Shown one piece after another: positions 13,334 through 38,116 of a stretch of DNA of 39,350 nucleotides. Within the stretch, counting starts at the first letter, position 1. Each line of letters opens with the position of its first letter. Both the position numbers and the translations under genes were made by a program. Below the pieces are notes generated by a model, which did not search any database, had not been told where the DNA came from, and saw nothing but the letters and a program-made list of their open reading frames with translations. The DNA comes from a bacterium (GTDB taxonomy: Bacteria > Margulisbacteria > Marinamargulisbacteria > JABGVJ01): NCBI GenBank assembly GCA_018646105.1, contig JABGVJ010000077.1, positions 1 to 39,350 of the forward strand, given 5' to 3'.

Positions 13334-14314
13334 ATGAAAAAAGTCTTTTTTTTAATTTTTTTCTTGTTGGTTTTGAGTAGCATATATGCTGCGGAAAAAC
13401 CTTTTGAAAAAGTTACTTTTGTACCTCAATGGGTGCCACAAGCACAGTTTGCCGGCTATTATGTAGCCTTGGAAAAAGGAATCTATAAGAAGTATGGTAT
13501 AGATGTTGAGATTGTCCAAGGCGGCCCCCGAGTTTCGCCAATAGAATATTTGAAAGATAAGAAAACGGATTTTGCAACTATGTGGTTGGCGTCAGCAATC
13601 CAAGAACGTGATCGTGGTGTAAAACTAGTAAATATCGCGCAAATTATTCAAAGATCATCTTTAATGTTTATAGCCAAGAGAACGAGTGGTATACAGGTGC
13701 CCGCTGATATGAATGGAAAAAAAGTGGGTATTTGGCCAGATGTTTTTAAGATTCAACCAGAAGCTTTTTTTCAAAAGTATGGATTGAAAGTTAAAAAAAT
13801 CCCACAATCTTTTTCGATTAATTTGTTTTTACATGGAGGCGTAGATGTGGTTTTGGCTATGTGGTATAACGAATACCATTTAATTTTGAATGCTGGATAT
13901 GATCCTGAAGATTTAAATACTTTTTTCTTTTATGATTACGGTTTAAATTTTCCGGAAGACGGGATTTATGTTTTGGAAGAAACGTTTAAAGCTAAACCGG
14001 AATTATGTAAAGCTTTTGTAAAAGCTTCTTTAGAAGGATGGCAGTATGCATTTGAGAATAAAAAAGAAGCTGTGAAGATCATTCTTAAATATCAGAAAAA
14101 GGCTAATATTCCTGCGAATAGTGTTCATCAGAAATGGATGTTGACGGTGATGGAAAGTATTATAAACGGCAATAAAAAGAAGCATAAATATGGTGTATTG
14201 AATAAAGAAGATTATGATAGAGTGATAAAAATTTTGAAAGAAGAAGCTTTGATAAAGAAGGTATTTGAATTTAAAGATTTTTATAAAGGGTTAGATACAT
14301 ATGTTCAGAAATAG
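13334..14314 (+). CDS. NMT1/THI5-like periplasmic binding protein (orphan)
   Basis: A 326-residue exported protein with signal peptide MKKVFFLIFFLLVLSSIYA. The fold is that of SsuA/THI5-like binding proteins: FVPQWVPQAQFAGYYVALEKG near residues 28-50 (quoted parts only), then YGIDVEIVQGGP, a KKVGIWPD segment and a C-terminal helix bundle. Members bind small molecules such as sulfonates, nitrate or pyrimidine thiamine precursors. The usual ATPase and permease genes are missing. Instead its last 14 bases overlap the start of a sensor phosphatase gene, so a role in presenting a ligand to that sensor is the best inference. Transport with components encoded elsewhere is the alternative. Its ligand cannot be predicted. 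Confidence 0.85.
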   Translation: MKKVFFLIFFLLVLSSIYAAEKPFEKVTFVPQWVPQAQFAGYYVALEKGIYKKYGIDVEIVQGGPRVSPIEYLKDKKTDFATMWLASAIQERDRGVKLVNIAQIIQRSSLMFIAKRTSGIQVPADMNGKKVGIWPDVFKIQPEAFFQKYGLKVKKIPQSFSINLFLHGGVDVVLAMWYNEYHLILNAGYDPEDLNTFFFYDYGLNFPEDGIYVLEETFKAKPELCKAFVKASLEGWQYAFENKKEAVKIILKYQKKANIPANSVHQKWMLTVMESIINGNKKKHKYGVLNKEDYDRVIKILKEEALIKKVFEFKDFYKGLDTYVQK

Positions 14315-16241
14315 AGGTTTAGCATTTAGGCTTTCTTTTTTGGTTTTGGTGAGCTGTGCTTTTATTTTTGTTTTTATTATTGGTTATAACTATATTGTTA
14401 CCAGAAAAATTTTAATTGATGATTTAAGAGAATCTGCGCAAAATAAAGCTTTTGTGGTGGCTAATGCGATAGAAAAATCTTTGTCACAAGTAGCTTCTTT
14501 TCCAGAGCATATTGCTTATTTTATGGAAAGTGAAACTGAATTTGAAGAAGAAGAGATTTTAGGGCTTTTGTCTTCTGTTTTAACTAATAATCCCAATGTT
14601 TATGGCTCGACGATTGCCTTTGCTCCTTATGCTTTTGATCAACAGAAATTATATTATGCTCCTTATTATTATCGCGATGGAGATGACATTAAGTTTAAGT
14701 ATTTGGGAGGAAGCGATTATGATTATTTTTATATGGATTGGTTTCAGATACCTCAAGAATTAGGTGTTAAAATATGGACTGATCCTTATTATGATGAAAG
14801 TGGCGGGGAAATTTTGATGGCAACAGTTTCTGTGCCTTTTTATCAAAAAAAGGGAACAGAAAAAAAATTTCTAGGTGTTATTACCGCGGATATTTCTTTG
14901 GGTTTTTTGCAAAATACAGTTACGTCTTTGCGTATAGGTAAGACAGACTATGGTTTTATTATTTCTAAAAATGGGGTTTTTATGTCTTATCCTGATAAAA
15001 ATTTTATTATGAATGAAACTATTTTTGCTGTAGCTGAATTAAAGAAAGATAAGTTGTTGCGTAAAGTTGGAAAAGCGATGATTAGAGGTGAGTATGGCTT
15101 TTCTAATATGAATAGTTTTGTACGTAATGAAAAAGGATGGTTGGTATATGTTCCATTGAGTAGCAGTGGCTGGTCTTTGGGTATTTTTATATCTAATACA
15201 GAATTGATGGCGGAAATAACAAATTTAACGGAGATTGTAATTTTAATTGGTTTGTTAGGTTTTGCTTTGCTTTTAGTCGTGATTGTTTTGATTGCTAGAT
15301 CTATAACAGGACCCATTAGAAAATTGGTGGAAAAAACCGGAAATATTTCTAAAGGAGATTTTAATTTTGAGTTAAAGCCTATTGAAAGAACAGATGAAGT
15401 AGGAAAGCTTACTAGTTCTTTTATTATGATGAGGAATTCTTTGAAAAAGTATATTAAGGAATTAAAAGCTACGACGGCTGCTAAAGAAAGAATGGAAAGT
15501 GAATTGAAAATTGCGCATGATATTCAAATGGGTATTTTGCCTAAAGCTTTTATGCCAAGTGAGAAAATGCCGTTTTCTTTATGGGCGCTATTAGAGCCAG
15601 CAAAAGAAGTGGGCGGGGATTTGTATGACTATTTTATGATAGATGAAGAGAATTTTTGTTTTGTGCTAGGGGATGTGTCTGGAAAAGGAGTTCCTGCGGC
15701 ATTGTTGATGGCTGTGACTATGACGTTGATTAAGTCTTTGGCTAAAGTCAGTAAGGATCCGGCAGACATTATGGCTAAGGTGAATGATGAATTAGCTAAG
15801 GAAAATGATGCCTGTATGTTTGTAACTACTTTTTGTGGGATATTGAATATGAAAACCGGGAAAGTGGTTTATGCTAATGCAGGGCATAATCCTCCTTTGA
15901 TGATAAAAAAAGGCCAAAAGGTAGAATATTTAAAGCTGGCGAAAGGGCCGGCGGTAGGTGTGCTGGAAAATATAGAGTATAAAAAGGAAAGTTTAATTTT
16001 AAAGCCAGGAGATGCTATTTATATGTATACCGATGGAGTTACCGAAGCTTTTAATGATCGAGATGAAGAGTTTTCGGAAAAGCGTTTGTTAGAAACGATA
16101 GAATTATATCGGGATGAAGAAGCTAAAGATTTGCTCAGAAAAACTTTGCAGGTAGTGCATGATTTTAGTCAAGGGGTTCCTCAATCGGATGATATTACGA
16201 TGTTGGTTTTAAAATATAGTGGTGGTATTATAAAAAAATGA
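14301..16241 (+). CDS. Membrane sensor PP2C phosphatase (dCACHE-HAMP-SpoIIE), RsbU-type
   Basis: A 646-residue transmembrane phosphatase. TM1 lies near 10-30. A periplasmic dCACHE domain spans about 45-285, with YMDWFQIP, WTDPYYDESGGEILMATVSV and GVITADISL. TM2 is near 308-332, a HAMP domain follows (ITGPIRKLVEKTGNISKGDF), then a short coiled coil containing IAHDIQMGILPK, the usual RsbU-type linker. The PP2C core has EVGGDLYDYF, GDVSGKGVPAALL, YTDGVTEAF and QSDDITMLVL, so all metal-binding Asp motifs are present. These enzymes dephosphorylate STAS-domain antagonists in partner-switch pathways. It is coupled by a 14-bp overlap to the binding protein upstream and by ATGA to the stand-alone sensor gene. 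No STAS or kinase partner lies nearby. Confidence 0.9.
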   Translation: MFRNRGLAFRLSFLVLVSCAFIFVFIIGYNYIVTRKILIDDLRESAQNKAFVVANAIEKSLSQVASFPEHIAYFMESETEFEEEEILGLLSSVLTNNPNVYGSTIAFAPYAFDQQKLYYAPYYYRDGDDIKFKYLGGSDYDYFYMDWFQIPQELGVKIWTDPYYDESGGEILMATVSVPFYQKKGTEKKFLGVITADISLGFLQNTVTSLRIGKTDYGFIISKNGVFMSYPDKNFIMNETIFAVAELKKDKLLRKVGKAMIRGEYGFSNMNSFVRNEKGWLVYVPLSSSGWSLGIFISNTELMAEITNLTEIVILIGLLGFALLLVVIVLIARSITGPIRKLVEKTGNISKGDFNFELKPIERTDEVGKLTSSFIMMRNSLKKYIKELKATTAAKERMESELKIAHDIQMGILPKAFMPSEKMPFSLWALLEPAKEVGGDLYDYFMIDEENFCFVLGDVSGKGVPAALLMAVTMTLIKSLAKVSKDPADIMAKVNDELAKENDACMFVTTFCGILNMKTGKVVYANAGHNPPLMIKKGQKVEYLKLAKGPAVGVLENIEYKKESLILKPGDAIYMYTDGVTEAFNDRDEEFSEKRLLETIELYRDEEAKDLLRKTLQVVHDFSQGVPQSDDITMLVLKYSGGIIKK

Positions 16242-16879
16242 AGAATTTAAACTTTATCGTTATATTATTATTTGGTTTTTTAATTATTTTTAATATTACG
16301 GGCATATATGGCGTAGATAAAAGTACAGTGATTAGAAGAGCCATAGATGCTAAGGATATTAGTGCTTTGGATAAGAAAATTTTGAAATTGACAAAAGCTG
16401 CAGCTAAGGAATGCGCGGAGGTTTTGGAGAAAGCTATTGATCAAGGAGTTCTTTCAGAGGAAGAAGTTTTTAGTACTTTGTATTTCCCTGTTTTACCATT
16501 AAGGTCTCCGCCTACATTTACGACTTTTTATGACACTTATACAGATGAGTTTATTACGCCTATTGAAGATAGATATTTAGCTAGTAGAGATGATCTTATT
16601 TTTGTGGCATTAGTGGACAAGAATGGGTATCTGCCTTCACATAATACAAAATTTTCACAGAAATTAATCGGAGATCGAGTTTTGGATCTGAAGCTTAACA
16701 GGACCAAAAGAATATTCAATGATATTACGGGTTTTTTTGCAGCTAAAAATAAAAAAGAGTTTTTATTACAGATTTATATCCGAGATACCGGAGAGATAAT
16801 GGCGGATTTATCTGTACCTGTTTTTGTTTTGGGTCGGCATTGGGGCGCAGTACGCATAGGGTATATAAGAGAGAAGTAA
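16238..16879 (+). CDS. Stand-alone periplasmic sensor domain, paralogue of next gene's input domain
   Basis: A 213-residue exported or membrane-anchored protein (hydrophobic 6-25, then IYGVDKS). It consists only of a sensor domain. Shared motifs with the next gene include VDKNGYLPSHNTKF (there LDKNSYVPAHNTKF), RTKRIFND (there RSKRIYTD) and IRDTGEIMADLSVPVF with HWGAVRIG (there YRDTGEVMWDISAPVF, HWGAFRFG). The same pattern occurs, from memory, in periplasmic parts of some chemoreceptors. It has no HAMP or output domain and ends right after the sensor fold. It may be a soluble or anchored co-receptor for its neighbours, or the remnant of a partial gene duplication; it is intact and has a good start, which favours function. 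Confidence 0.75.
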   Translation: MKNLNFIVILLFGFLIIFNITGIYGVDKSTVIRRAIDAKDISALDKKILKLTKAAAKECAEVLEKAIDQGVLSEEEVFSTLYFPVLPLRSPPTFTTFYDTYTDEFITPIEDRYLASRDDLIFVALVDKNGYLPSHNTKFSQKLIGDRVLDLKLNRTKRIFNDITGFFAAKNKKEFLLQIYIRDTGEIMADLSVPVFVLGRHWGAVRIGYIREK

Positions 16880-16881
16880 TT

Positions 16882-18585
16882 ATGTTTAAAAAATTATCGG
16901 TTCGAGTTTCTTTGCTGATTATGATTATCATAACTATAGTTATGATCGGTTTTACGGTTTTTTTGATTAAGGATCGTTCAGAAGAACTGGAAGAAATTAT
17001 TATTAATAAAGGGGTTACTTCTGCAAAAATTGGGGCTGATATTATGGAGGATGTATTAACTACAATAATTGATAATGGAATATTCACTAAAAAAGAGGTT
17101 TTTAATTTTGAGTTGGTTCCTATAGAATTGCCGAGAAAACTGACCCAAAAATATAAGAATGTTTCAGAAAAGCAACTGAACTCTATTAAAATGTATCATT
17201 ATGTTACAACTTTAGATTCGTATTTGGATAATGCGCTTGTAGAAATAGAGGATAAGTTTTTGGAGGATCCTCAAGTTGCATATGCTGCATTGCTGGATAA
17301 AAATAGTTATGTGCCTGCGCATAATACAAAATTTAATAAACCTTTAACAGGAGATTTTCTTTACGATCGGAATAACGGCAGATCAAAAAGAATATATACG
17401 GATAAGGTAGGACTTGCGGCGGTAAGGAATAAAGATAAAGATTATTTGAAACAAGTATATTATCGAGATACGGGTGAAGTGATGTGGGATATTTCGGCAC
17501 CTGTTTTTGTTAAGGGTGAGCATTGGGGCGCTTTTCGATTTGGGGTTTCTATGGAAATGACCAAAAAAGCTGTAAATGAATTGAAGTGGAAATTGATAGT
17601 TTTGATGAGTGTATTGCTGATTGTTTTGGTATTAGTAGTGAGCCAGGTTATTGCTTTTATGATGCGTCCGTTAAAAGTTTTGCATCAAGGCGTGAATAAG
17701 TTAGCTAAAGGTAATCTTTCTTTTAAACAAGAAAAATTTTCAAATGATGAAATAGGTGATTTAGGTAAGGCATTTACCAAGATGGTAAATGATTTAAAAG
17801 ACTATATAGAGAAATTAAAAACGACTACAGCTGCTAAAGAAAAGATGGAAGGCGAATTAAGAATTGCGCATGAAATTCAAATGGGGATTTTACCTAAGAT
17901 TTTTCCGCCATACCCTAAGGTTCCTTTTTTTGATTTAAAGGCGATGTTATTGCCAGCGAGAAGTGTGGGCGGAGATCTTTATGATTTTTTTATGATAGAT
18001 GAGGATAATTTTTGTTTTGTGATTGGAGATGTATCTGGTAAGGGAGTGCCTGCAGCGTTATTAATGGCGGTGACGATGACTTTGATAAAAACGTTGGCAA
18101 AAGAAGTGATGCTGCCGGAAGAAATTATGGCCAGAGTAAATAATGAAATAGCCAAGGATAATGAGTCTTGTATGTTTGTGACTACTTTTTGTGGTATTTT
18201 GAACGTAAAAACAGGTGTTGTGATCTATGCTAATGCTGGTCATAATCCGCCTTTGATAATCAGAAAAAATAAAAAAGTAGAATATTTGAAAGTAGCAAGA
18301 GGGCCAGCTGTAGGTGCGGTGGAGGATGTGACTTATCAAAGAGAAAAAATAATCTTAAAGCCAGGAGATACTATTTATATGTATACAGACGGGGTAACCG
18401 AGGCTTTTAATGATCGAGATGAAGAATTTTCAGAAAAGAGACTGTTAGAGACTGTGGAATTATATAGAGATAATAATGCTAAAGATTTGATTAGAAAAAG
18501 TTTGCAGGTAGTGCAGAATTTTAGCCAAGGAGTGGCACAATCTGACGATATTACGATGCTGGTTTTAAAATATACGGGGAAGTAA
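16882..18585 (+). CDS. Membrane sensor PP2C phosphatase (second RsbU-type copy)
   Basis: A 568-residue paralogue of the dCACHE phosphatase with a different input domain. TM1 is near 8-28, the periplasmic sensor about 30-232 (same type as the stand-alone protein before it), TM2 about 233-256, then HAMP (MRPLKVLHQGVNKLAKGNL). The linker IAHEIQMGILPK and the PP2C core (VGGDLYDFFMID, GDVSGKGVPAALL, YTDGVTEAFNDRDEEF, QSDDITMLVL) are almost identical to those of the first copy, pointing to a recent duplication of the output half. I chose the ATG at 16882; a TTG-type start 42 bp upstream would overlap the previous gene and add an unlikely tail. The stop codon lies at the edge of a palindromic repeat. 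Confidence 0.9.
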   Translation: MFKKLSVRVSLLIMIIITIVMIGFTVFLIKDRSEELEEIIINKGVTSAKIGADIMEDVLTTIIDNGIFTKKEVFNFELVPIELPRKLTQKYKNVSEKQLNSIKMYHYVTTLDSYLDNALVEIEDKFLEDPQVAYAALLDKNSYVPAHNTKFNKPLTGDFLYDRNNGRSKRIYTDKVGLAAVRNKDKDYLKQVYYRDTGEVMWDISAPVFVKGEHWGAFRFGVSMEMTKKAVNELKWKLIVLMSVLLIVLVLVVSQVIAFMMRPLKVLHQGVNKLAKGNLSFKQEKFSNDEIGDLGKAFTKMVNDLKDYIEKLKTTTAAKEKMEGELRIAHEIQMGILPKIFPPYPKVPFFDLKAMLLPARSVGGDLYDFFMIDEDNFCFVIGDVSGKGVPAALLMAVTMTLIKTLAKEVMLPEEIMARVNNEIAKDNESCMFVTTFCGILNVKTGVVIYANAGHNPPLIIRKNKKVEYLKVARGPAVGAVEDVTYQREKIILKPGDTIYMYTDGVTEAFNDRDEEFSEKRLLETVELYRDNNAKDLIRKSLQVVQNFSQGVAQSDDITMLVLKYTGK

Positions 18586-18645
18586 CACTCGTCCCTTTAG
18601 GCCTCACCCCCTAGCCCCCTCTCCATAAATGTAGAGGGGGAATAT
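18584..18645. repeat. Dispersed palindromic repeat, copy 1
   Basis: This segment contains the CTCACCCCCTA-type core and an inverted repeat with arms ccccctct (18615-18622) and agaggggg (18633-18640), loop ccataaatgt. The same hairpin and loop recur at 33449-33474. It begins with TAACACTC, which also carries the stop codon of the phosphatase gene. As RNA it could act as a weak terminator or stabiliser. It is far more GC-rich than the surrounding DNA. Confidence 0.8.
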
Positions 18646-20935: not shown

Positions 20936-20953
20936 GCTATAATATTTTTCCTA
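20936..20953 (+). promoter_or_regulatory. Extended -10 promoter for leaderless mtaB
   Basis: TGCTATAAT (20935-20943, the T of TG at 20935) precedes the ATG at 20953 by nine bases, with no Shine-Dalgarno between. The transcription start would fall at or within a few bases of the start codon. Confidence 0.55.
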
Positions 20954-22320
20954 TGAATAAGATCAAAATATCATTTTTTACCCAAGGGTGTAGGTTAAAC
21001 CAGTCAGAGACGGCTTCTTTGAAAAACGGTTTTGAGGAAGCAGGGTTTAAGGTTGTGGACTTTGATGGTGATACCAATTTGGTAGTGATTAATACTTGTA
21101 CGGTAACAGAGAAGAGTGACCGGGATACACGACTTTTGATTAATAAATTTATTAAAAAAAATCCTAAAGTAAAAATTGTATTAATAGGCTGTCAGGCACA
21201 AGTTTGGAAAGAGAAATTGTTGGCATTGCCTAATGTGGTGTTGGTAGTGGGAAATGAGGAGAAGATGGATTTGGTGGGGAAGATTAAGAATATTAGGCCT
21301 CACCCCCTCCTACGCCAAGGCTTCGGAGGGCAGGCCCTAACCCCCTCTCCACAAGTGGAGAGGGGGGATTTTATACATGTGACCGAGATTAAAAAGCGAA
21401 GTTTTACGATTCCGTATGCAAGCGTGGAAAAGACACGGACTAGAGCGAACCTGAAGATTCAGGATGGGTGTGATAATTATTGTGCGTATTGCATAGTGCC
21501 TTATGCCAGGGGCCCGGTACGAAGTAGAGAGTTTGAAGATGTGTTGCGCGGCGCGCTGGAATTGGTGGTAAGTGGGGTTAAAGAGATAGTTTTGACAGGG
21601 GTGAATATTGGGAATTATGGAACTCACCCCCTAAATCCCCCTCTCTTTATTCAAAAAGAGGGGGACTTAAATTACAAATTAGAAGATGTGCTGAGAGAAT
21701 TGAGTGCGATAGAGGGGATGGGACGGATACGGATATCCTCCATTGAGTTGACTACACTTTCGGAAAAGTTGTTGGATTTGATCGCGGGGAATGAGAAATT
21801 GTGTAGGTATTTGCATATACCGCTACAGAGTGGCAATGATAGTGTGCTAAAAAGGATGGGCCGTAAATATAGTGTGCAGGAATATGCGGATTTTGTGAGG
21901 TTAGCGGTTGAGAAGGTTGATGGAATATGTATTGGTACGGATGTGATAGTAGGATTTCCGGGAGAGACAGATGCAGCGTTTCAAGAAACATATGAGTTTC
22001 TTGAAAACTCACCTTTAGCTTATTTTCATGTTTTTAGTTATTCGGATCGGGCAGGGACAAAGAGTTTTGAGATGCAGCCCAAGGTTGCTAATAATGTGAT
22101 TCAGAAGAGAAGTAAATTTTTAAGAGATTTGAGTGAAAAAAAACGCCAGGAGTTTCGTGTAAGGCAGGTAAATAAAACTGTGACGGTTTTATTTGAACAA
22201 GAGAAAAATGGGTTTTGGACCGGTTTAACAGATAATTATATACGGATGCAGCTGAAATCTGAGCAGAATTTGGAAAATAAGATGGTAGCAATGAAATTAG
22301 AGGATGTGTGCTGTATTTAA
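20953..22320 (+). CDS. mtaB: tRNA t6A37 methylthiotransferase MtaB, with two in-frame repeat insertions
   Basis: A 455-residue radical-SAM methylthiotransferase that converts t6A37 to ms2t6A37 in ANN-decoding tRNAs. MTTase cysteines are Cys13 (QGCRLNQSE), Cys49 (NTCTVTEKSDRDTR) and Cys80 (IGCQAQ). The radical-SAM site is CDNYCAYC (173, 177, 180), followed by IVPYARGPVRSR. A TRAM domain ends the protein. QGCRLN and NTCTVTEKSDRD are MtaB signatures. Two segments look foreign: residues about 115-140 (LLRQGFGGQA, then LTPSPQVERGD) and 224-238 (THPLNPPLFIQKEGD). Both are encoded by GC-rich palindromic repeats read in frame. They lie in loops outside the cluster motifs, so activity is probably kept. 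Confidence 0.93.
   Translation: MNKIKISFFTQGCRLNQSETASLKNGFEEAGFKVVDFDGDTNLVVINTCTVTEKSDRDTRLLINKFIKKNPKVKIVLIGCQAQVWKEKLLALPNVVLVVGNEEKMDLVGKIKNIRPHPLLRQGFGGQALTPSPQVERGDFIHVTEIKKRSFTIPYASVEKTRTRANLKIQDGCDNYCAYCIVPYARGPVRSREFEDVLRGALELVVSGVKEIVLTGVNIGNYGTHPLNPPLFIQKEGDLNYKLEDVLRELSAIEGMGRIRISSIELTTLSEKLLDLIAGNEKLCRYLHIPLQSGNDSVLKRMGRKYSVQEYADFVRLAVEKVDGICIGTDVIVGFPGETDAAFQETYEFLENSPLAYFHVFSYSDRAGTKSFEMQPKVANNVIQKRSKFLRDLSEKKRQEFRVRQVNKTVTVLFEQEKNGFWTGLTDNYIRMQLKSEQNLENKMVAMKLEDVCCI
21296..21374. repeat. Palindromic repeat inside mtaB, copy 2
   Basis: This is a double palindrome within coding sequence. Arms ccctcc (21305-21310) and ggaggg (21325-21330) enclose the tacgccaaggcttc core that encodes RQGFGG. 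A second, perfect inverted repeat has arms ccccctctccac (21341-21352) and gtggagaggggg (21355-21366). The reading frame stays open across both. Confidence 0.9.
21622..21668. repeat. Palindromic repeat inside mtaB, copy 3
   Basis: ACTCACCCCCTAAATCCCC is followed by arms ccccctct (21637-21644) and agaggggg (21657-21664). It matches the copy after btuD almost base for base up to the loop, and is read in frame as THPLNPPL and the following residues. Confidence 0.9.
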
Positions 22321-33376: not shown

Positions 33377-33480
33377 GCTTCACCCGCAGCTTCGCTGCAA
33401 AGGTTAAGGTTAAGATTAAGGTTAAGGTTTAACACTCACCCCCTAAACCCCCCTCTCCATAAATGTAGAGGGGGAATTTT
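33377..33480. repeat. Composite repeat, copy 4 (left flank of btuFCD)
   Basis: Three parts are in order: a hairpin gcagc-ttc-gctgc (33386-33398), a run of TTAAGG-type hexamers (about 33401-33428), then TTTAACACTCACCCCCTAAA and an inverted repeat with arms ccccctct (33449-33456) and agaggggg (33467-33474). The copy at 35931-36033 has the same parts in the same order and orientation. It fills the gap between ilvA and btuF. The final hairpin followed by aatttt could stop ilvA transcription. Confidence 0.88.
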
Positions 33481-34264: not shown

Positions 34265-35223
34265 AAAGATTAGTTTTATTATTAGTTTTATTATTATTAG
34301 GGATTGGTTTGGCTTTGTTTTGTGGAGCTGTAAAGATTCCTTTGAGTGATTTGGGGCATTTGACGCAGGTGCAGCAAGATATTATTTGGCAGTTGCGGTT
34401 GCCCAGGATGCTGAATGCTTTTTTGGTTGGAGGGTGTTTGGCGACTGCAGGCGCTCTTTTGCAAGGTGTATTACAGAATCCTTTGGCAGATCCATATATA
34501 CTGGGGATATCAGCAGGTGCGGGTCTAGGAGTCGCGGTTTTATTTTTATTTAATTTTTTTGTGTTTTCCGTGTTTTTACCTTTTGGGGCTTTTGGGGGCG
34601 CGGTGCTTGCAGTATTTGCGACTTATTTTATTGTGAAGCTAACACGGAATTTTTCTATTTATAATTTTATTATGGCTGGTATTATTGTGAATACTTTTTT
34701 GGCGGCAGTAACAATGCTGATAGTTTATTTTTCCAAGGAAAAGTTTATGGGGTTGATGTTTTGGTTTATGGGTAATCTGGCTAATGCGGAGTTGAATAGG
34801 GTGGTGGTGATGATTTTACTTTCTGTGTTGGTGGTTGGTTATACGATGTTTTTGGCGTATCAGCTAAACATTGTGTCTGTAGGAGATAGTGAAGCTAATG
34901 CGGTGGGGATAAATGTAGCGGGTTTGAGAAAGAAAGTGTTTTTTATAGCTTCTTTTTTGACCGGGATTGCGGTGGCCAGTGGTGGGGTGATCGGGTTTGT
35001 AGGATTAGTGATACCGCATATGGTGCGGTTATTGTTTAAGTATGATTTTAGAGTGGTAATTCCGGTTTCGTATTTATTGGGTGGGATTTTTTTGATGTAT
35101 ATGGATACAATTTCGCGGTCTTTATTTAATGGGTTTGAGCTGCCGGTAGGGATATTGACGGCATTTATAGGAGCACCGTTTTTTTTATGGTTAATGATTA
35201 CCAAAATGCGCAAATCAGCGTAA
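34261..35223 (+). CDS. btuC: Cobalamin ABC transporter permease BtuC-like
   Basis: A 320-residue FecCD-family permease with about ten membrane helices. The hallmark segment is LRLPRMLNAFLVGGCLATAG, then LLQGVLQNPLADPYILGIS and AGAGLGV. The cytoplasmic coupling region includes SEANAVGINV, followed by SGGVIGFVGLVIPHMVRLL, the loop that contacts the ATPase. It pairs with BtuD as a homodimeric pore. It is translationally coupled at both ends: ATGA overlap with btuF and a 37-bp overlap with btuD. Confidence 0.93.
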   Translation: MKRLVLLLVLLLLGIGLALFCGAVKIPLSDLGHLTQVQQDIIWQLRLPRMLNAFLVGGCLATAGALLQGVLQNPLADPYILGISAGAGLGVAVLFLFNFFVFSVFLPFGAFGGAVLAVFATYFIVKLTRNFSIYNFIMAGIIVNTFLAAVTMLIVYFSKEKFMGLMFWFMGNLANAELNRVVVMILLSVLVVGYTMFLAYQLNIVSVGDSEANAVGINVAGLRKKVFFIASFLTGIAVASGGVIGFVGLVIPHMVRLLFKYDFRVVIPVSYLLGGIFLMYMDTISRSLFNGFELPVGILTAFIGAPFFLWLMITKMRKSA

Positions 35224-35963
35224 AGAATTTATCTTATCAAGTAAACGGAAAAGCTATTCTTAGGAATATCAGCCTGGAGTTTGGGGCTGGTGAAATAGTG
35301 GGTATCCTGGGGCCTAATGGCGCGGGTAAAACCAGTTTGCTAAAGCTGATGATGCAGGAATTATCAAAGTCTGCGGGTGATGTTTATCTTCATAACACAC
35401 GATTGGAAAATTATCCTAAAAAAGAATTGGCTAAGGAGTTTACTTATGTCACGGTAGCAAAACCGCTGGATTTTAATTTCACGGTTTATGAGATAGTGGC
35501 GATGGGTAGGTACCCCTATTTAAAAATTTTTTGTTTTCTAAGTGAAAAGGATACGCTGGCTGTAGATAAGGTTATAAAAGAAACTAAGCTTCATGATTAC
35601 AAACATAATTTTTTTAATACTTTAAGTCAGGGGGAGATGCAGAGGGTGATGATTGCTAAGGCTTTGGCGCAAGACACGCGGTTTCTTTTTTTGGATGAGC
35701 CTATAGCACATCTGGATATCAAGCATCAAAAAGAGATTATAGATATTTTGCAGACTAGAAAGACTCAATATCAGCAAGGGATAGTGGTGGTATCTCATGA
35801 TATCAATTTGTTGGCTAGGATTTGTGATCGGGTGGTTTTGTTGAAGGATGGTGCTGTTTATAAGGTGGGGAAGATGGCTGAGGTGATGAATAAAGGGGAT
35901 TTGGAAAGAGTGTTTGAGACAGAGATTTTGGCCTCACCCCCGCAGCTCCGCTGCAAAGATTAA
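35187..35963 (+). CDS. btuD: Cobalamin ABC transporter ATPase BtuD-like, C-terminus made by a repeat
   Basis: A 258-residue ABC ATPase. Walker A is GPNGAGKTS, the signature is LSQGEMQR, Walker B is RFLFLDEP followed by D-loop AHLD, and the switch His is in VVSHDINLL. These place it with FecCD-coupled ATPases. The ATG at 35187 lies inside btuC and is the only start that keeps the complete first strand. The last ten codons (ASPPQLRCKD) and the stop are encoded by the GC-rich composite repeat that begins at 35931. The natural C-terminus after FETEIL is therefore replaced; the core domain is complete and probably active. Confidence 0.93.
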   Translation: MVNDYQNAQISVKNLSYQVNGKAILRNISLEFGAGEIVGILGPNGAGKTSLLKLMMQELSKSAGDVYLHNTRLENYPKKELAKEFTYVTVAKPLDFNFTVYEIVAMGRYPYLKIFCFLSEKDTLAVDKVIKETKLHDYKHNFFNTLSQGEMQRVMIAKALAQDTRFLFLDEPIAHLDIKHQKEIIDILQTRKTQYQQGIVVVSHDINLLARICDRVVLLKDGAVYKVGKMAEVMNKGDLERVFETEILASPPQLRCKD

Positions 35964-36033
35964 GGTTAATATTAAGGTTAAGGTTTAACACTCACCCCCT
36001 AAATCCCCCTCTCTATTCTATAGAGGGGGACTT
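35931..36033. repeat. Composite repeat, copy 5 (right flank of btuFCD)
   Basis: It has the same composite structure as copy 4 and the same orientation: hairpin gcagc-tcc-gctgc (35942-35954), TTAAGG-type hexamers (about 35960-35983), TTTAACACTCACCCCCTAAA, and an inverted repeat with arms near 36005-36012 and 36022-36029. It supplies the 3' end of btuD. The following bases to about 36078 are AT-rich with no recognisable feature. Confidence 0.88.
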
Positions 36034-38067: not shown

Positions 38068-38116
38068 CACGCACTTTTTTTTAGGCTTCACCCTCTAGCC
38101 CCCGAAGGGGGGATTT
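38065..38116. repeat. Palindromic repeat, copy 6, possible btuB terminator
   Basis: TAACAC at the btuB stop, then GGCTTCACCCTCTAGC and a hairpin ccccc-gaa-ggggg (38099-38111) followed by a T-rich tract. It belongs to the same family as the other copies, with a shorter inverted repeat. It could end btuB transcription; the following 76 bp lead to metH with no clear promoter. Confidence 0.7.

Follow-up and report, generated by a model that had tools for sequence, protein, structure and literature searches.

mtaB and its two in-frame inserts

The window, that is, the whole stretch of 39,350 nt analysed here, corresponds to one of the 120 contigs of a genome of 1.56 Mb that is 90% complete. Its forward strand carries mtaB (20953..22320), encoding a tRNA t6A37 methylthiotransferase of 455 aa that is identified by a profile match to TIGR01579 (411.5 bits, passing the cut-off of 357) and by its invariant cysteines, the six Fe-S cluster ligands (C13, C49, C80, C173, C177 and C180) being all present and invariant in an alignment with 31 MtaBs. 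At 45-51% identity, the nearest named MtaBs belong to an unclassified bacterium (Bpl_23), Marinamargulisbacteria and two MAGs, one of Omnitrophota and one labelled Actinomycetota. Protein alignments with class relatives (27 genomes, none closer to the source genome) and with 31 further MtaBs of named genomes place two in-frame inserts that these proteins lack. The gaps at both sites, along with the RNA folds, bear out the first-pass annotation, which had proposed two palindromic, cleanly inserted segments in this gene.

Insert 1 (forward strand, 21295..21369; residues 115-139, RPHPLLRQGFGGQALTPSPQVERGD) adds 75 nt, or 25 codons, made up of a 45-nt type-A repeat unit (AGGCC...GGGGAT) plus 30 nt. 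Aligned copies delimit its head (TCACCCCC, 21300..21307), behind which come a 30-nt mini-hairpin encoding LLRQGFGGQA (21308..21337), placed in a slot recognised from other copies and from a diverged composite elsewhere in the genome, and the main hairpin (CCCCCTCTCCACAAGTGGAGAGGGGG, 21341..21366), defined by fold and aligned copies. The RNA fold of the insert (-44.8 kcal/mol, z -5.2) indicates a hairpin beyond chance, as does that of insert 2 (z -2.7). The latter is a type-D repeat on the same strand (21623..21664; about residues 224-238, THPLNPPLFIQKEGDL) with a net length of 42 nt, corresponding to 14 codons missing in relatives, and positions 21621-21668 recur as an identical 48-nt copy in contig C21 (L146). 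Removal of CTCACC...GGGGG would leave six residues between a conserved tyrosine and the next helix, which is the relatives' state. Because the inserts belong to two different sub-types (A and D), at least two independent events in mtaB are indicated, as had been supposed.

Insert 1 belongs to the linker that joins the N-terminal methylthiotransferase and radical-SAM domains, and insert 2 to one of the loops of the latter. One class relative (L127) bears a long insert of its own at the first site, unrelated to insert 1, so that this site is tolerant of length change. In an AlphaFold model based on a 32-sequence alignment (mean pLDDT 89.8, pTM 0.88), the only segments of at least three residues with pLDDT below 50 are 124-135 and 229-238, both within the inserts; the prediction is thus one of an intact fold from which the inserts emerge as flexible loops. 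Alignment and model thus agree with the earlier statement that the inserts are free of stops, sit in loops and spare the Cys ligands; to judge from its motifs, MtaB with both disordered loops probably still works as an enzyme.

A modular repeat family and its placement

Aligned copies of the repeat consist of a CTCACCC head, an optional mini-hairpin slot and a GC-rich main hairpin. The core pattern has 43 matches genome-wide at up to three mismatches, compared with one for the reversed control, with the AAAT variant additional to these, and 68 copies were catalogued in 277 kb of DNA stretches chosen around copies. Sub-types A, B, C, D and E have the head in common; A reads TTAGGCC followed by TCACCCCCTARCCCCCTCTCCA..., B (about 80 nt) TGTGCCC followed by TCACCCCCTARCCCCCTCTCCCG..., and D AAC followed by TCACCCCCTAAATCCCCCTCTC.... 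In about 12 copies a different mini-hairpin stands right behind the head, preceding or replacing the main hairpin; these include GCAGCTTCGCTGC, GGCGCTTCGCGCC, TGTCACTTCGTGACA and TGTCGCTGAGGCGACA, and the LRQGFGGQ segment of mtaB occupies the same slot. In such alignments the head looks constant and the slot interchangeable. Variable mini-hairpins after the CTCACCC head, often with CTTCG loops and cassette-like, were also seen in stretches L142, L145, L147, L149, L152, L154, L158, L159 and L163. The first-pass claim that both insert repeats also occur between genes in the window holds for sub-types A and D. It does not extend to the LRQGFGGQ hairpin itself, which at up to three mismatches was found in mtaB only in a search of the source genome, a diverged version of the composite being intergenic in contig C83 (L165); for LRQGFGGQ, a type of peptide that the first-pass annotation had taken to be frequent in candidate-phylum proteins, a scan of viral contigs gave no exact match.

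Elsewhere on the forward strand of the window, intergenic copies comprise a type-A copy (18596..18640, from pattern match and aligned copies), a head with the GCAGCTTCGCTGC mini-hairpin followed by a type-D-like copy (33379..33474), and a short variant, TTTAGGCTTCACCCTCTAGCCCCCGAAGGGGGGAT (38080..38114). A further head with a GCAGCTCCGCTGC mini-hairpin overlaps a gene end and precedes a type-D copy (35933..36030). The gene concerned encodes an ABC-transporter ATPase (35187-35963), whose ASPPQLRCKD end and stop (35931-35963) are encoded by the head and mini-hairpin, and it is therefore a second gene of the window affected by the repeat, with a repeat-derived C-terminus. The window also holds paralogous sensor/phosphatase-like genes (14301-16241 and 16840-18585) with 3' parts 73-78% identical in DNA. 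No Rfam family was matched in the window, and inspection of aligned copies by eye revealed no U-tract straight after the type-A hairpin, as an intrinsic terminator would have.

Three of the 68 copies lie well inside genes, two in mtaB and one in an NRPS gene (L164), and nearly all others are intergenic. With codon-based gene calls made for this analysis and stretches selected around copies, the coding fraction is at least 71%, giving P of about 1e-31 for three of 68 under random placement; the depletion from genes is thus extreme. The NRPS copy reads RPHPLAPSPQVEKG, in the strand and frame of insert 1, and is situated in an inter-domain linker that exceeds its counterpart in LgrA (second adenylation domain) by 18 aa. 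As is characteristic of GTAG REPs, copies are numerous, mainly intergenic and near the 3' ends of genes, and the TAG of TTAGGCC doubles as the upstream gene's stop codon at five type-A copies. Of 52 genes next to type-A copies, 48 have the copy in sense orientation; since the strand bias of the region around is just as strong (93%), this orientation cannot separate selection from strand-specific insertion. The overall pattern of placement fits selection that spares harmless insertions.

Other phyla and known palindromic elements

At no more than one mismatch, a 22-bp core was found in the phylum (15 of 74 genomes, with 1-4 copies each and 38 in the source genome), in Chloroflexota (55 of 400 genomes, up to 388 copies) and in Bacteroidota (9 of 396 genomes), with zero reversed-control matches in all three scans. 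Plasmids of Pseudanabaena match the exact core, and those of Nostoc, Hymenobacter and others a relaxed pattern. The distribution of the core is patchy and takes in Cyanobacteria, Chloroflexota and Bacteroidota besides the source phylum, at least four phyla in all. Phage records yielded one weak, partial match and nothing more. Among IMG/VR contigs (L211-L242, e.g. UViG_3300042525_000913), several related ones carry many core copies, all on one strand, with roughly one in three inside a long open frame. Two Pseudanabaena galeata plasmids (L184, L185) have DNA methyltransferase genes with several in-frame repeat-like stretches each, such as PSPPSPLSQ..GRGG and SPSPSGRGAGGEG, some of which are inverted pairs. 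The viral contigs offered no usable empty-site alleles and the Pseudanabaena genes no usable close homologues. We found no paper on the CTCACCC head, the repeat DNA or its peptides in the open-access literature searched, although they may have been described elsewhere.

In-frame intragenic palindromes are established for RPEs and for GTAG/CGTC REPs, including genes hit repeatedly (PMC3733652), and REPs also occur inside tnpA_REP genes (PMC6006769). The likeness to Rickettsia palindromic elements pointed out in the first-pass annotation is sound, given the in-frame palindromes in mtaB and a function judged from its motifs; Rickettsia RPEs are likewise in-frame palindromes in working proteins, sometimes two per gene (Ogata et al. 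2002, as far as recounted in PMC3733652). However, RPE-4 and RPE-6 carry a CGTC tag, at least in the account of PMC3733652, whereas the mtaB inserts do not, and intragenic copies of the CTCACCC repeat are rare (3/68). No RPE protein model was among 25 of the 26 NCBIfam matches. With GTAG REPs and REPtrons (PMC3733652) the repeat shares high-copy GC-rich hairpins at gene ends, in-frame intragenic copies, and an element whose TAG serves as stop codon, but it has a head of its own and an exchangeable mini-hairpin. GTAG or GTGG is absent 0-2 nt 5' of the hairpin, where CTAA/CTAG or AAAT stands on the plus strand and ATCCCC or AAGTCCCC on the other. REPs of TnpA_REP subclass 2.4 (PMC6006769) resemble it in their occurrence in Cyanobacteria, Bacteroidetes and scattered phyla and in frame-keeping insertions as predicted loops, yet their feet are GT[AG]G and they occur on either side of tnpA_REP genes, while no Y1 gene was found adjoining the CTCACCC repeat. 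The repeat is thus REP-like in behaviour and nevertheless departs from GTAG REPs in two defining features, having no GTAG/GTGG foot and no cognate RAYT that was found in the source genome.

Origin and meaning of the inserts

We regard it as highly probable that the mtaB inserts derive from a palindromic repeat that is REP-like and non-autonomous, as rare survivors of selection translated into disordered loops. This account draws on the comparison with homologues, which marks the segments as insertions, and on the repeat family, frame, depletion from genes and predicted disorder. From these we infer that the repeat is mobile, that the inserts are translated and that MtaB activity is retained. 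The CTCACCC family would have multiplied within the source genome, with selection removing most intragenic insertions and leaving those with a length multiple of three, an open frame and a position in a surface loop; in mtaB, translation of both inserts would give disordered loops, and the enzyme would probably still work.

The first-pass annotation had favoured an element tuned to be translatable and so entering genes harmlessly, and all three intragenic copies do share strand and frame (HPL-x-PSP/PP). This idea now appears very improbable and did not survive the comparison of frames: type-A and type-D units have two to three of six frames open, and dinucleotide shuffles as many or more. The frame used in mtaB contains a stop in many copies (loop CCATAA or GTGTAG) and is also closed by the commonest loops (ATAAATG, ACAAGTGT); both intragenic type-A copies have the ACAAGTGG loop, which keeps it open. 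Genes are, moreover, strongly avoided, and elsewhere all three open frames are in use: this is so in the viral contigs with the core, where 12 of 38 copies lie within long frames. For stretches of Chloroflexota the figure is 2 of 49, these two forming an inverted pair. That mtaB is a decaying gene in which inserts accumulate is likewise unlikely; two inserts in one gene would have only about a 0.3% chance if three intragenic copies fell at random, but the frame of 455 aa is open, conserved motifs and cysteines are present, the fold outside the inserts is confident, and the source genome has no second gene comparably similar to mtaB.

As for how the repeat moves, it resembles published REPs in its anatomy, its overlap with stop codons, its inverted pairs and its frame-keeping insertions, so that a classical REP mobilised in trans by a RAYT (Y1 transposase), since lost or hidden in an assembly gap, is a real possibility, although short of an even chance; published REPtrons can be lost, and a profile search of the source genome, a 90% complete MAG where a gap is possible, found no Y1_Tnp. 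Against this stand the missing GTAG foot and the lack of association between Y1 transposases and the repeat: a Y1 transposase is present in 10 of the 16 genomes rich in the element and in 11 of the 16 free of it, Chloroflexota being among the element-rich genomes without one. Across 34 genomes or records, the repeat never lies within about 1.5 kb on the flanks of a Y1 gene. For MITEs, which are defined by terminal inverted repeats and a target-site duplication of a parent insertion sequence, neither a parent element nor an empty site was found. We would suggest, tentatively and with some doubt, that CTCACCC repeats may be cross-phylum modular palindromic mobile elements, in which head and main hairpin stay constant and a mini-hairpin cassette is exchanged, and that something other than a REP/IS200 Y1 transposase may spread them.

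REPs lying in frame within genes, even two in one gene, have been published. Less ordinary are a core that is patchy across phyla, the absence of a GTAG or CGTC tag and of a link to a REP transposase, and the modular head and slot. Our results extend protein-coding palindromic insertion to a little-studied lineage, with mtaB as a clean case of a conserved enzyme bearing two repeat-derived loops that are predicted to be disordered. With the 22-bp core present in four or more phyla and the expected transposase not accompanying it, movement between phyla becomes a testable question.
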